Shown piece by piece: positions 18,290 through 22,738 of a stretch of 22,738 nt of DNA. Origin of the DNA: a virus; IMG/VR virus record IMGVR_UViG_3300038660_000082, positions 1-22,738 of that record; one strand, 5' to 3'. A program made the position numbers and the translations under genes. Numbering within the stretch: position 1 is the first letter of the stretch; every line of letters begins with the position of its first letter. Under the pieces are notes generated by a model. The model was not told the origin of the DNA. It worked only from the letters and a program-made list of their open reading frames with translations, and made no database searches.

Positions 18290-19147
18290 TTATTGTTGTT
18301 TTGATTTCTTGATCTTCATAGCGTGGATCATACGCTTAACCCGTCTCAGGTCGTTCTCGGAGTCTGTAATGATCTTCTTGATGTCGTTGCGGTCTTCGAT
18401 ACCGTTGGCCACACATACCTGAGTGATGTCGGTAGTGCCAACGCCCTTAAGTTCAATACACTTGCGACCTATACGGCTGTAGATTTCCTTATAGCCTTTC
18501 TTGTTGAGGCGAAGGCCTTTTTTAAGGCGTTTCTCCAGGTGATCTGTTGCTGCTAAGACAATCCCGCAGTGGTCCTCCAGTTGGTTGAAAATGGTAATGA
18601 AGAAATACAGTACCTGGTCGCTCAGCTTGTCGGCTTCGTCCATGATGATGAGTGGACTGTCTTGCTTCTTAAGTTGCCTGGTCACTTCCATCATCATTTC
18701 GGCAACGGTGAGGCCAGAGTAATCTCTTCCCATTGCTTGCAGGAGTTCTGCGAGAAAGTATTTCCTGTTCCAGTACTCGTTGCATTGCAGCAGGTGGGCT
18801 CTTTTGTTGTTTTGTGTATAGTGACGGATCGCCAGAGACTTACCGCTTCCTGCTTCGCCTACAATAGCAAATACATTGTGAAACTGCTGAGCGTCTGAAA
18901 GGAGGCTGGACATGATCTTGTAGTCTCGAGTCTCCACGACTTGCCATTGGTCTTTTGTAAATCCAGTTTGTGAAGCGATGTTTCTCCACATGTCGTCCGA
19001 GATCTTCTCCCAGTTGTCATTGATCACTTGAGAGATCAATGCGCCAGATACACCCTTAAGTGTTCTTGATGCCTGGTTCTGCGAGTCGTAGCGAGCGCAG
19101 TAGTCTTGCAGTTGATTTTTAATTTTTGTTTTGTCTTGAATAGTCAT
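18290..19147 (-). CDS. MuB-like AAA+ transposition target ATPase
   Basis: From the ATG at 19147 the product has 285 residues. Residues about 24-59 are a phage-repressor-like HTH (NQASRTLKGVSGALISQVIN), as in Mu B. The AAA+ core has Walker A GEAGSGKS (97-104), Walker B LIIMDEAD (166-173), and a sensor 1 segment GIVLAATDHLEKRLKKG. The C-terminus ends DLRRVKRMIHAMKIKKSKQQ, basic and DNA-binding. MuB polymerises on DNA, chooses target sites and stimulates MuA. An upstream GTG at 19195 would extend the frame, but its codons lie in a hairpin, and the ATG has the leader AAAACCCAAAAGTT. It follows the transposase gene by 57 bases. Confidence 0.9.
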   Translation of the reverse strand: MTIQDKTKIKNQLQDYCARYDSQNQASRTLKGVSGALISQVINDNWEKISDDMWRNIASQTGFTKDQWQVVETRDYKIMSSLLSDAQQFHNVFAIVGEAGSGKSLAIRHYTQNNKRAHLLQCNEYWNRKYFLAELLQAMGRDYSGLTVAEMMMEVTRQLKKQDSPLIIMDEADKLSDQVLYFFITIFNQLEDHCGIVLAATDHLEKRLKKGLRLNKKGYKEIYSRIGRKCIELKGVGTTDITQVCVANGIEDRNDIKKIITDSENDLRRVKRMIHAMKIKKSKQQ

Positions 19148-19176
19148 AACTTTGGGTTTTGGATTATTAATAGATT

Positions 19177-19206
19177 GCCCGTGCTTAAGCTCCACGGGCT
19201 TTTTTT
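19177..19206 (+). terminator. Plus-strand intrinsic terminator between transposase and MuB genes
   Basis: GCCCGTG (19177-19183) pairs with CACGGGC (19193-19199), 9-base loop, followed by seven T (19200-19206) on the plus strand. Both flanking genes read minus, so on their transcript the hairpin is preceded by A's and lacks a U-tract. It should stop plus-strand (antisense) transcription, or act as an RNA stem separating the two cistrons. Confidence 0.7.
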
Positions 19207-21214
19207 ACATCATATCGTAAGGATCGCACTCATCGCTGTTGCTAACTTCCTTCTGAAATTGTGCGAGTTCCAATTCTTTCTTTTTAACTGGCTTAGGCTT
19301 ATTTAGTTTGCTTTTTTGGCGTCTGGAAGACTCTACTCCCTTAATGTTTGGAGATCTTAAGCCTTGTTGGTGTGCTGCACCTCCGTGAGCTTCGAGAATG
19401 TCTTCAGTAGCGTTTCTCATGTCTACACGCAGATCTTTGTTGCGTTGGATGATATCACGGACAAAGTCCTCTTCGAACTCTGTGATCTCTTGACGAGCTC
19501 TGGAGACTTCTACCTTAGTTTCTGCGGCAGTTATAAATCGAAGTCCTAGAGGTGTGTCTTCATACAGATAAATCAGTGTCATGTCTTCAGGATCAAACTT
19601 TATGTGAAATTTCTTATCGATAGACTTTCTGTGGAAGTTCATATCGGCTCTGCGATCTTCATCGTAAACCAGATATTCGTACTTAGCGCCTTTCTCTGTG
19701 AATGAAAGTCCAGAAGCATTATAAGTCACAGGCTTATCCCTAAGAATCCAAAAGAGATCCACCATGTCAAACATGCTTAGCTCTGGAGCTTCAGCATTTG
19801 TACTTTCCAAATACATGGATATGCGTGGCTTTCCTGTCTTGTGGTGAGTCGCTTCGTTCCATTCCTTACGTCGCTTAGCGTATGTGGCTTTGATTTCGTC
19901 CAGACTTGGCAGATCGCGTTGATTTGCCAGGATAAACTCCATATTTGCCTTAGATTCTTGTTTTTTGGTGGTGATGTTCTGGCCTGTAAAGAACCAATCA
20001 CGCTTCAAAAACTGCTGTTGAAACCTTCCAAATATGCTTTCAATGGTCTTAGATTTACCATTGTAAGGCTGTGTTTTGATGCTGAGACGTGCCAGCTTGG
20101 TCAAAAACTCGCCCGATTGTAGCTTCTTATGTCCTCCCTGGCCATCAAACCCAATTTGATAGGGTCTATGTCCAGAAGTTTTAGCAGCCATCTTATAAGC
20201 GAAGTATTGCGCCTCATAGTCTTCAGATTTTGAGATATGGTACCCAAGTAGAACTTCGGAGTACGTGTCGATGACTTCATACACCTGGCAAGTCTGCATT
20301 TTTCCATTTTCGTCCTGGTAGTAGTAGTTAAGTTTGGTACCATCACTATACCATAGGCTATCACGCTGTGAAGGCATTTTGGTCTTAAGGTGCATGGTGT
20401 ATTTTTCTTTGGCGGTGACCTCTCCAAATCTGTGACCGTACCAAAGTGGCTTGATGTCCTCCTGGTGTAGATAGTTATAAATGGTCTGCTCAGATTTCAG
20501 TTTCTTCCAGCCTTCGTCTTTAGCCAGTTTATTATATTCGGCAAAAAGCTGCATAGTATTGGCAATCTTGTTGACTTGATCTGCCCAACGAGATACGAGC
20601 CACATTTTGGCATTGTCGTTGATTTTCTCGGAGTTCTTGTTACAGAAATTACCATGTACCAGGCTGTCAAAACCTTCGGTCTTAAATTGGTTGTATTTCT
20701 GCTTAAGTCTGCGGTGGTTGGACGGTAAGGAGTGAGGCCATTGATTGAAGGTTAGTTCACTTACTACTTTAGCCATCTTTTGCCAAACTTGCGTTTTTGC
20801 AACTCCAAGAGCTCTACGCTTAGCAAGCTTATTATTCATCATTACATCGATAGTGGTAAGGATGGAAGCATTTGCGGTGTATTCGTTGATGTTTTTCTCT
20901 GGAAGGGCTTTATCGTCATTGGTGACGTAGTTCTGGAAGTATTTTTGCGCCTCGAGGTTGGTGTTTAGATAATCGGTAAAAACGATGTGCTTGGTTTTCT
21001 TGTAAGGATCACCAGCAATTTGAACAATTTTAGATTTTATCCTACCCGGAATAGATTCAAACTCAATAAGTGCTTTAACTGATCTGCATCCTCTTCGTAT
21101 GACGTTGATGTTTCCAGCAGAAGCGTGGTAATGATAGTTATTTCGATTAAATATCTTTCTATCAATTAGCCAGCTGGACTCAACACAAAGGGTATCGTTG
21201 TAAAATTCAAACAT
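19205..21214 (-). CDS. MuA-like DDE transposase
   Basis: A 669-residue protein. Residues 1-75 form an N-terminal DNA-binding domain with NYHYHASAGNINVIRRGCRS and ALIEFESIPGRIKSKIVQIA. The catalytic core has WYSDGTKLNYYY (Asp291), QIGFDGQGGHKK (Asp357) and SKTIESIFGRFQ (Glu392), the DDE triad of the Mu/retroviral integrase family. A C-terminal domain follows (SGLSFTEKGAKYEYL, then RARQEITEFEEDF) with a Lys/Arg-rich tail ending DECDPYDMM. It joins phage ends to target DNA with MuB and gives replicative transposition. Length and layout agree with Mu A (663 residues). One base separates its ATG from the stop of the small gene that duplicates its N-terminal domain. Confidence 0.93.
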   Translation of the reverse strand: MFEFYNDTLCVESSWLIDRKIFNRNNYHYHASAGNINVIRRGCRSVKALIEFESIPGRIKSKIVQIAGDPYKKTKHIVFTDYLNTNLEAQKYFQNYVTNDDKALPEKNINEYTANASILTTIDVMMNNKLAKRRALGVAKTQVWQKMAKVVSELTFNQWPHSLPSNHRRLKQKYNQFKTEGFDSLVHGNFCNKNSEKINDNAKMWLVSRWADQVNKIANTMQLFAEYNKLAKDEGWKKLKSEQTIYNYLHQEDIKPLWYGHRFGEVTAKEKYTMHLKTKMPSQRDSLWYSDGTKLNYYYQDENGKMQTCQVYEVIDTYSEVLLGYHISKSEDYEAQYFAYKMAAKTSGHRPYQIGFDGQGGHKKLQSGEFLTKLARLSIKTQPYNGKSKTIESIFGRFQQQFLKRDWFFTGQNITTKKQESKANMEFILANQRDLPSLDEIKATYAKRRKEWNEATHHKTGKPRISMYLESTNAEAPELSMFDMVDLFWILRDKPVTYNASGLSFTEKGAKYEYLVYDEDRRADMNFHRKSIDKKFHIKFDPEDMTLIYLYEDTPLGLRFITAAETKVEVSRARQEITEFEEDFVRDIIQRNKDLRVDMRNATEDILEAHGGAAHQQGLRSPNIKGVESSRRQKSKLNKPKPVKKKELELAQFQKEVSNSDECDPYDMM

Positions 21215-21215
21215 C

Positions 21216-21455
21216 TTAAGTATTTTTAATATTAGTCATCTTGTAAGGATCACCAGTGATCTCTACAATCTTAGATTTTAGCCTATCTGGAATAGACTCA
21301 AATTCGATAAGAGCCTTCACATTTCTGCAACCTCTTCTTATCACATTGATATTACCAGCTGAAGCGTGGTAGTGGTAGTTTTTACGTTTTAGTATATTTT
21401 GGTTGATTACCCAAATAGATTGAATGCACAATGTGTTTTTATATAATTCGTACAT
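21216..21455 (-). CDS. Free-standing duplicate of the transposase N-terminal domain
   Basis: A 79-residue protein. Over residues 1-74 it matches the N-terminus of the adjacent transposase at 54 positions by hand alignment, and at 43 of 49 from residue 26 on (for example the shared NYHYHASAGNINVIRRGCR). It ends with the unrelated tail MTNIKNT and then stops, one base before the transposase ATG. The two DNA copies differ by silent changes: seven in the 45 bases encoding HASAGNINVIRRGCR, which is identical in protein. So this copy is old and kept under protein-level selection. In Mu the matching region (MuA domain I-alpha) binds the enhancer/operators shared with the repressor. This protein may therefore compete with transposase or repressor; that is inference. 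Confidence 0.85.
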   Translation of the reverse strand: MYELYKNTLCIQSIWVINQNILKRKNYHYHASAGNINVIRRGCRNVKALIEFESIPDRLKSKIVEITGDPYKMTNIKNT

Positions 21456-21456
21456 G

Positions 21457-21666
21457 CTACACGTTTATAATGTTATTAATGCGAGCACTTATCTGTTTGT
21501 ACTCTTCAGAAATCTTTTGAGCGGTTTCAGACGTTCTTTCACCATTTATGCTATAAATGACCATTCTTTCTGAAACTTGATATTTACCAGCAAGCCTTGA
21601 AATAACCTGCTTTATATATGTATTCCTATTTTTAGTAGATTTGTTCACTTTAAAGATTTTGTTCAT
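21457..21666 (-). CDS. Small HTH protein, Ner-like, first gene of the early operon
   Basis: From the ATG at 21666 the product has 69 residues: MNKIFKVNKSTKNRNTYIKQ, then VISRLAGKYQVSERMVIYSI and NGERTSETAQKISEEYKQIS. Residues about 19-45 make a helix-turn-helix (ISRLAGKYQVSERMVIYSING). It occupies the place of Mu Ner, the small regulator at the head of the early operon, and one base separates it from the duplicated domain gene. An in-frame start at 21693 would put the codon upstream of the proposed -7 box, so 21666 is preferred. It presumably binds operators in the divergent control region. Related small HTH proteins are common in Bacteroidota phages. Confidence 0.75.
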   Translation of the reverse strand: MNKIFKVNKSTKNRNTYIKQVISRLAGKYQVSERMVIYSINGERTSETAQKISEEYKQISARINNIINV

Positions 21667-21675
21667 GTGATTGAA

Positions 21676-21683
21676 CAAATATA
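21676..21683 (-). promoter_or_regulatory. Early promoter -7 element (TATATTTG)
   Basis: TATATTTG on the minus strand matches the Bacteroidota -7 consensus TAnnTTTG exactly. No good TTG -33 box is seen at 19-21 bases. It would give a very short leader before the ATG at 21666. Operator-like dyad O1 abuts its upstream side, fitting repression. Confidence 0.6.
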
Positions 21684-21697
21684 TAGTATACAAACTA
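21684..21697. promoter_or_regulatory. Operator-like dyad O1 (TAGTATACAAACTA)
   Basis: 14-bp dyad of the form TAGTA-N4-TACTA with one arm mismatch, next to the early -7 element. Its centre is 31 bp from that of O2, so both face the same side of the helix. Confidence 0.6.
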
Positions 21698-21714
21698 AAT
21701 TAGACTAATAAAAA

Positions 21715-21728
21715 TAGTAAAAATACTA
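21715..21728. promoter_or_regulatory. Operator-like dyad O2 (TAGTAAAAATACTA)
   Basis: Perfect 5-bp arms with a 4-base centre, 13 bp upstream of the repressor ATG at 21741. Same form as O1 and O3. Confidence 0.65.
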
Positions 21729-21740
21729 AACTTTAACACT

Positions 21741-22073
21741 ATGATTATCGATAGACTTTTACAATTCATTGAATACAAAAGCATTAATAAATCTCAATTT
21801 TACAAAGAGGTTGGATTAAGCAATGGGTTTCTTGACAAAAGGAAGGACATGGGAGTATCTAAACTAAAAAAGGTTATGGAGGCTTACCCGGATCTTTCTG
21901 AAAAATGGCTTATTAAAGGAGAAGGTCCAATATTAAAATCTGTTGTCGAAAAGCCACCAGACAAGGAACTTGACAAGTATTTAATTGATGTTCAAAGGAA
22001 ACTCATATATAAGCTTGAAGAGGACAACGAACGGCTAAAAAAGCAAATCAAACGCGGAAACGGTCATAAATAA
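21741..22073 (+). CDS. Phage repressor-like HTH protein
   Basis: A 110-residue protein beginning MIIDRLLQFIEYKSINKSQF. Residues about 14-45 carry an XRE-type HTH (SQFYKEVGLSNGFLDKRKDM), followed by GVSKLKKVMEAYPDLSEKWL and IKGEGPIL, the form typical of Bacteroidota phage repressors. The C-terminal third (ELDKYLIDVQRKLIYKLEED, then NERLKKQIKRG) is a probable coiled coil for oligomerisation. No peptidase domain is present, so control is unlikely to go through RecA-stimulated self-cleavage. It diverges from the early operon with the dyads between, the same arrangement as Mu c and ner. Confidence 0.78.
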   Translation: MIIDRLLQFIEYKSINKSQFYKEVGLSNGFLDKRKDMGVSKLKKVMEAYPDLSEKWLIKGEGPILKSVVEKPPDKELDKYLIDVQRKLIYKLEEDNERLKKQIKRGNGHK

Positions 22074-22212
22074 GTTGCTTAACCTGAAAGCTAACTAGCA
22101 ACCACCACACACTTTTAAACTTCTCATTTCACAAAGCTTTATATTACAGGCTTTTACCTTTTTTTTGTTAATAAATTTAAGGAATTAACTACCCTTCTAT
22201 CGTGGTTAAAAA

Positions 22213-22226
22213 TAGTATTTATACTA
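22213..22226. promoter_or_regulatory. Operator-like dyad O3 (TAGTATTTATACTA)
   Basis: Perfect 5-bp arms and 4-base centre, the same form as O2 and nearly O1, located 140 bp past the repressor stop toward the phage end. A remote operator could allow looping or also be read by the transposase N-terminal domain. Confidence 0.6.
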
Positions 22227-22276
22227 ATTAATAAGTATTTAGCCTATATGTATGGTGTGTGTATTTTTGTTAAAAA

Positions 22277-22312
22277 CTACACCCAATACTACACCCAATA
22301 CTATACCCATTC
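22277..22312. repeat. 12-bp tandem repeat (CTACACCCAATA x2, then an imperfect copy)
   Basis: CTACACCCAATA occurs at 22277-22288 and 22289-22300 exactly, and CTATACCCATTC at 22301-22312 as a third copy with three changes. Regular 12-bp spacing in a region expected to hold transposase sites suggests protein binding, but a simple tandem duplication is also possible. Confidence 0.7.
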
Positions 22313-22481
22313 CATTTTTGAGTGATTCGCGCAGCATCCAAATCAAATTGTACAATTCTGCCTTATTTAGTTTAAATACGACCAATAGAACTAACTCAAA
22401 TAAAGGCTTTAGAGCCTGTTTACATTGATATTCTGGTATATAACTGTATATTTGATTGCTCAGTAGAACCTGAGGGAAAGC

Positions 22482-22502
22482 AAACGGTATTTAACCGTTT
22501 TT
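22482..22502 (+). terminator. Weak plus-strand hairpin with T run
   Basis: AAACGGT (22482-22488) pairs with ACCGTTT (22494-22500), 5-base loop ATTTA, T's to 22502. It could end transcription from the repressor gene about 400 bp upstream. The stem is short and AT at its base, so the call is tentative. Confidence 0.4.
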
Positions 22503-22511
22503 AAAGCGGTG

Positions 22512-22527
22512 GTTAATTGGTACTTAA
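22512..22527. repeat. 16-bp repeat copy B (GTTAATTGGTACTTAA)
   Basis: Exact second copy of the sequence at 11599-11614, same orientation, in the left-end region. Confidence 0.55.
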
Positions 22528-22558
22528 AAGTAGAAAATGTACAATTTGAAAAACGCAC

Positions 22559-22585
22559 AAAAAAAGCGCCTACAAGTGTAAGCGC
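22559..22585 (-). terminator. Minus-strand intrinsic terminator
   Basis: On the minus strand GCGCUUACA (22585-22577) pairs with UGUAGGCGC (22574-22566), one G-U pair, and is followed by seven U (22565-22559). It lies 41 bases after the stop codon of the gene entering from the right, so it should end that transcript. Confidence 0.8.
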
Positions 22586-22625
22586 CTTATTTTATTGACC
22601 TTTTGACCTTTTTACTATTATTACT

Positions 22626-22738
22626 CTATTGTACAATTCGTTTCATACCCCTTAGATAATTGTCTGTACTGCTTATTCTTCCTATCCCTTTATAATATGT
22701 ATTACCCACTCTTAAGTGAAGTTCACCAATTTTTTTTT
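22626..22738 (-). CDS. C-terminal end of a gene entering from the right edge
   Basis: A frame open at the right edge encodes 36 visible residues, KKIGELHLRVGNTYYKGIGR followed by ISSTDNYLRGMKRIVQ, and ends with TAG at 22626. A terminator follows 41 bases later, as expected for a real gene 3' end. I do not recognise it. It lies outside the repressor, where Mu has no genes, so it may be host DNA interrupted near by the prophage, or an accessory gene at the phage end. Confidence 0.55.
   Translation of the reverse strand, partial: KKIGELHLRVGNTYYKGIGRISSTDNYLRGMKRIVQ

Follow-up and report, generated by a model that had tools for sequence, protein, structure and literature searches.

One point at which Mu transposition is controlled is the binding of the enhancer by domain I-alpha of the transposase. 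From its position on this internal enhancer, I-alpha promotes assembly of the transpososome (PMC3362531). Two papers cited in PMC3820752, Harshey 1985 and Mizuuchi 1986, name in their titles a homology of the Mu and D108 c repressor with I-alpha, and the N-terminal domain of that repressor (1QPM) is an I-alpha paralogue used apart from the transposase, within a larger, divergently transcribed lysogeny protein. In IS1, InsA is produced from the transposase message, shares the DNA-binding domain of the transposase InsAB', represses transcription and competes with the transposase for the ends; transposition falls about 600-1000-fold as a result (PMC12428005). Mu-like phages also carry Ner, a small DNA-binding protein whose gene immediately precedes A in the early operon.

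The DNA analysed here (the window, meaning the whole stretch of 22,738 nt, an IMG/VR virus record) belongs to a Mu-like virus whose host is probably a member of the Bacteroidota. Its early operon follows the Mu-like order and comprises a small helix-turn-helix (HTH) protein in the Ner position (21457-21666, minus strand; HTH-family profile E 8e-16), a small gene (21216-21455, minus strand), a 669-aa MuA-type transposase corresponding to A (19205-21214, minus strand; phrog_310, E 6e-71) and, as the next gene, a MuB-type ATPase corresponding to B (18290-19195, minus strand; phrog_296); further ATPase and DUF3164-type genes are also present. One base separates the stop codon of the Ner-position gene from the ATG of the small gene, and one base separates the stop codon of the small gene from the transposase ATG. 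A repressor-type HTH gene with a weak phrog_8 match (21741-22073, plus strand) is transcribed divergently. The first-pass annotation had correctly placed the small gene in the early operon; of the range that it gave for the feature, 20993-21455, the part at 21216-21455 is the small gene and position 20993 is the end of the transposase's own I-alpha.

This locus shares with Mu the predicted winged-helix topology of I-alpha (1TNS), its N-terminal place in the paralogous transposase and the operon context of repressor, Ner position, A and B. In Mu, however, I-alpha is only part of MuA, whereas the window phage also has it as a separate gene. The small gene differs from the Mu c repressor in encoding a bare 79-aa domain, without a C-terminal regulatory part, on the same strand and in the same early operon as A, and the phage's own repressor has another fold. 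Like InsA, the product is a separate protein holding only the DNA-binding domain of the transposase (intact ORF and dN/dS 0.028, see below); unlike InsA, which comes from the same ORF without frameshifting and has a zinc-finger/HTH domain, it is a winged helix encoded by a duplicated gene. It resembles Ner in size and in lying just before A, but the HTH protein in the Ner position is a separate gene, to which the small gene is additional, and the HTH-family profile of that position finds 21457-21666 and not the small gene.

The small gene and the transposase start

The small ORF begins with ATG, and its product (predicted pI 9.7) aligns without gaps to residues 1-74 of the transposase, the I-alpha domain (20993-21214, minus strand), with 54 of 74 residues identical (BLOSUM62 score 303) and 43 of 49 identical from residue 26 on. 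The alignment stops at residue 74, and the two copies are 73% identical in DNA. Chance similarity is excluded by the I-alpha domain profile, which finds the small ORF at E 3e-37. All figures on which the first-pass annotation had based its view of the gene as a duplicate of the transposase start, including the stop one base before the transposase ATG, were reproduced. The end-binding, catalytic and MuB-contacting parts of the transposase are absent from the small protein.

Searches of Pfam, PHROGs and PDB sequences with the small protein returned no credible family, and its sequence comparison with MuA gave no significant match. Its structure was modelled with AlphaFold using an alignment of 51 relatives, and the model (pLDDT 91) is a winged helix with the predicted secondary-structure order E-E-H-H-E-E-H. 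When the model was compared with solved structures using VIA-align, the top match was MuA I-alpha (1TNS; Z 5.5, rmsd 4.3, 68 residues) and the second was the DNA-binding domain of the Mu repressor (1QPM; Z 5.3), the row after that having Z 4.3; Foldseek alone gave weak matches (E 0.8-1.0; 1TNS, E 1.0). Because the fold, the position in the transposase and the ranking of 1TNS and 1QPM above other structures agree, the small protein is identified, at the level of a model, as a MuA I-alpha-type winged helix, and its alignment makes it a homologue of the N-terminal part of a Mu-type DDE transposase. The proposal that a free I-alpha-type domain is encoded here is thereby strengthened.

An orthologue of the small gene is found at the same position in L016, a phage about 75% identical in DNA. 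Between the window and L016, 43 nucleotides but 7 amino acids differ in 72 codons. A purpose-written codon-model script gave a dN/dS of 0.028 for this pair (p versus 1 of 7e-18), compared with 0.024 for I-alpha and 0.038 for the remainder of the transposase. As this value is low and similar to that of the transposase, the small gene is translated and constrained as tightly as the transposase is. Its ORF is intact in the window, L010, L011 and L016 and in the covered part of L012, and every contig of the window clade with the small gene keeps it so. An assembly artefact was ruled out by the presence of the gene in independent contigs and by its 27% DNA divergence from the transposase copy. Within residues 1-73, 26 of the 53 codons for residues identical in the small gene and the transposase differ silently. 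The earlier claim that the copy is old and selected as protein is thus upheld, and the observations that had been named as speaking against it (dN/dS near 1, absence in all relatives, lack of translation) were not made.

Identity between the two copies is concentrated in residues 26-56, which cover most of the recognition helix (24-33), the wing and the flanking strands. In this core (21288-21380 in the small gene and 21047-21139 in the transposase, both minus strand) 30 of 31 residues are identical, versus 24 of 43 outside it (p 5e-5). The contrast is present in the window and in L016, two lineages that share history. Silent differences are about equally frequent in the core (16/30) and outside it (10/23), which rules out gene conversion as the reason for the conserved core and indicates that the core was kept by selection on the protein. 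Across different phages, residues 26-56 are conserved no more than the remainder of the domain. Since the core is nearly identical despite ordinary silent divergence, the comparison points to recognition by the small protein of the same DNA sites as transposase I-alpha. Separately, residue 57 of the transposase (21044-21046) is Gly in the window and Asp or Glu in the aligned close relatives L010, L011, L013 and L016, and may be either a unique variant or a sequence error.

Gain, loss and exchange near the left end

The small gene is absent from L013 and L014, whose transposases are 98-99% identical and in which the HTH gene is followed directly by the transposase. L011 is a recombinant: its repressor, its HTH gene and the first ~25 codons are of the L013 type, and a window-type small gene and transposase follow. 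The small gene arose by tandem duplication of the transposase start and has been gained and lost among relatives. In L016, the tail of the small gene and the stretch leading up to the transposase ATG clearly match the last part of the HTH gene, the leader of the small gene's own ATG (none of 762 comparable genomic windows reaches that score); in the window itself the match is not clear. This resemblance suggests a tandem duplication of ~240 bp that carried its own stop, with the 3' tail of the small gene (codons 73-79 and stop, 21216-21239, minus strand) as the probable, still suggestive, junction.

The window and L010 differ from L011, L013 and L014 in repressors, control regions and operator palindromes, which lie over nearly identical transposases. 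The control region of the window (21667-21740) contains two TAGTAN4(T/A)ACTA palindromes (21684-21697 and 21715-21728), found in the window type only, with a third copy at 22213-22226. We interpret the differences in repressor and control region (21667-22226) as natural immunity-type exchange, and, because of these differences and the L011 recombinant, the I-alpha region is also a place where immunity modules are exchanged. L014 is mosaic near the left end. Across both immunity types the I-alpha core is unchanged while the palindromes differ, which makes the immunity operator an unlikely I-alpha binding site. No I-alpha similarity was found in the repressor gene (21741-22073); the repressor has a fold different from that of the small protein, which is not part of it. 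The earlier suggestion that the free domain might replace part of the repressor's role through a shared operator finds no support in these results.

The left end of the phage was placed with its outermost base at about 22654, and 22655-22738 is flanking DNA outside the phage. The window, L010 and L013 diverge outside 5'-TAAGGGG(C/T)AT, where the L016 contig begins exactly; as the sequences differ beyond this point, the phages were inserted at different places. The motif AATTGTACA occurs four times, always at most about 310 bp from the left end, with 0.24 occurrences expected in the window. Its repeats at 22630-22638, 22538-22546 and 22346-22357 are likely transposase end sites of the L1/L2/L3 type, within 22346-22654. 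A 12-bp direct repeat, GGGTGTAGTATT (2.8 copies, 22276-22309), is kept in all clade phages covering these positions and is a candidate binding array; it was not accepted as the I-alpha site because the pattern occurs in many other viral contigs, and it is listed as a candidate only.

Extra I-alpha copies in other phages

For a survey of recurrence, loci were fetched with the transposase, giving 143 distinct 5' ends, 135 of them with at least 320 bp upstream. Among these, the window clade, L109 (with a 79-aa gene) and L125/L126 carry extra I-alpha copies. Only in L125/L126 does the copy form an in-frame fusion with the Ner-position HTH protein (L125 1-474); the transposase ATG overlaps the stop of the fusion, and a model of the L125 fusion has two folded domains with a low-confidence linker between them. 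A fourth case is a Segatella hominis prophage (NZ_CP137560.1), with an annotated 85-aa hypothetical protein (KUA50_RS15970); because the DNA that follows still corresponds to residues ~77-195 of the transposase, but in another reading frame, this free domain comes from a longer duplication that a frameshift has interrupted. Searches of Flavobacteriaceae, Bacteroidaceae and phylum-wide genomes yielded transposases, some cut or broken; none of the matches inspected was another free domain.

In a domain tree the window-clade copies group with their own transposases (99% support), the L125/L126 copy falls in another group (100%) and the L109 copy is a long, unplaced branch. Extra I-alpha copies arose at this location at least two times and probably four. 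The core of the extra domain in L125/L126 is identical to that of the L018 transposase at 23 of 31 residues and to that of its own transposase at 14 of 31, and the L109 core matches its own transposase at 12 of 31. Some extra copies would accordingly not read the site of their own transposase and, given how far the L109 and L125 cores differ from it, same-site competition cannot be a general rule for all copies.

Other candidates were set aside. Short open frames in L067, L103/L184, L389, L392, L401 and L408 are broken or cut transposases, and the gaps of 70-270 nt in L026, L028, L043, L073, L077, L078, L091, L168 and L172 hold unrelated small ORFs, some of them membrane-like. In Prevotella-group Mu-like prophages a small membrane-like ORF lies between the Ner-position gene and the transposase (L077 2518-2733, L078 3772-3987, L073 3748-3954). 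In L358 (603-2507), transposase similarity continues in frame past an in-frame stop after residue ~209, consistent with either a broken gene or readthrough.

No paper describing such a small gene was found in a search of mostly open-access literature. This kind of regulator is known in principle from other mobile elements, and the present arrangement is new as far as the searched literature goes. The statement in the first-pass annotation that no such Mu-like phage had been described therefore holds for that literature; relatives with the arrangement do exist, undescribed, among them the annotated prophage of a cultured strain.

Possible roles of the free domain

Competition for the I-alpha sites of the transposase is the most economical idea, because a selected, free I-alpha-type domain is encoded in the early operon with its DNA-reading face almost unchanged. 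Tandem duplication of the transposase gene start inside the early operon produced a free-standing I-alpha copy, translated from the transposase's own message just ahead of the transposase. According to this proposal, the small protein, with its recognition helix and wing kept, would occupy I-alpha sites needed for transpososome assembly, and as it has none of the parts that bind the ends, catalyse or contact MuB, it would act there as a competitor, exerting a competitive, dominant-negative damping or timing of transposition in step with transposase production. We regard a role as early-operon competitor at enhancer-type sites, damping or timing transposition, as a real possibility that falls a little short of an even chance. 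Counting against it, L013 and L014 manage without the small gene, and an equally built protein could assist rather than inhibit.

The small gene lies between the Ner-position gene and A, and a role next in likelihood is that the free domain, in partnership with the Ner-position HTH protein, acts on the control region to switch off the early promoter or set its timing, affecting transposition only indirectly. The two-domain fusion in L125/L126 accords with such transcriptional regulation, as does the situation in Mu, where one stretch of DNA serves as both enhancer and operator (PMC3820752, PMC3362531). We consider it unlikely, however, with control-region palindromes that differ between immunity types over the same I-alpha core and with the fusion confined to one lineage. 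The small protein might instead help assembly, additional free I-alpha units aiding the formation or release of the transpososome by occupying the enhancer region or bending it. Its predicted sites, which are those of the transposase, and its co-expression with the transposase speak for this; the lack of every part contacting ends, catalytic core or MuB, and of the gene itself beside nearly the same transposase in L013 and L014, makes this role quite improbable.

The I-alpha core is common to phages with different repressors, and the natural recombinant L011 shows that immunity types meet, so that the free domain might act on superinfecting relatives of another immunity type with the same I-alpha sites. 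There is a slim chance of such interference at best, given that the gene is part of the early operon instead of accompanying the lysogeny gene and that the phage itself would be inhibited too. A functionless relic of unequal crossing-over near the 5' end of the transposase gene, for which the clear origin by partial duplication, the longer copy broken by a frameshift in S. hominis, the absence of the gene from L013/L014 and the L011 recombinant can be cited, is strongly disfavoured and very improbable in view of a dN/dS of 0.028 across a divergence with many silent changes and of an ORF intact in all clade contigs carrying it.

More broadly, and tentatively, with rather more doubt than confidence, we suggest that in transposable phages of Bacteroidota duplicated transposase starts have more than once become new early regulators, in the window clade and L109 as a free domain that binds the enhancer, in L125/L126 as a two-headed repressor joining the Ner-position HTH to I-alpha; some copies would keep the site of the transposase, and others would retain an earlier specificity that the transposase's domain has since lost through change. 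Natural phages matched except for a selected free I-alpha gene (L011 versus L013/L014) would provide a test, beyond the Mu model, of enhancer competition as a setting of transposition rate, and the repeated, partly broken cases show how transposase fragments turn into regulators.
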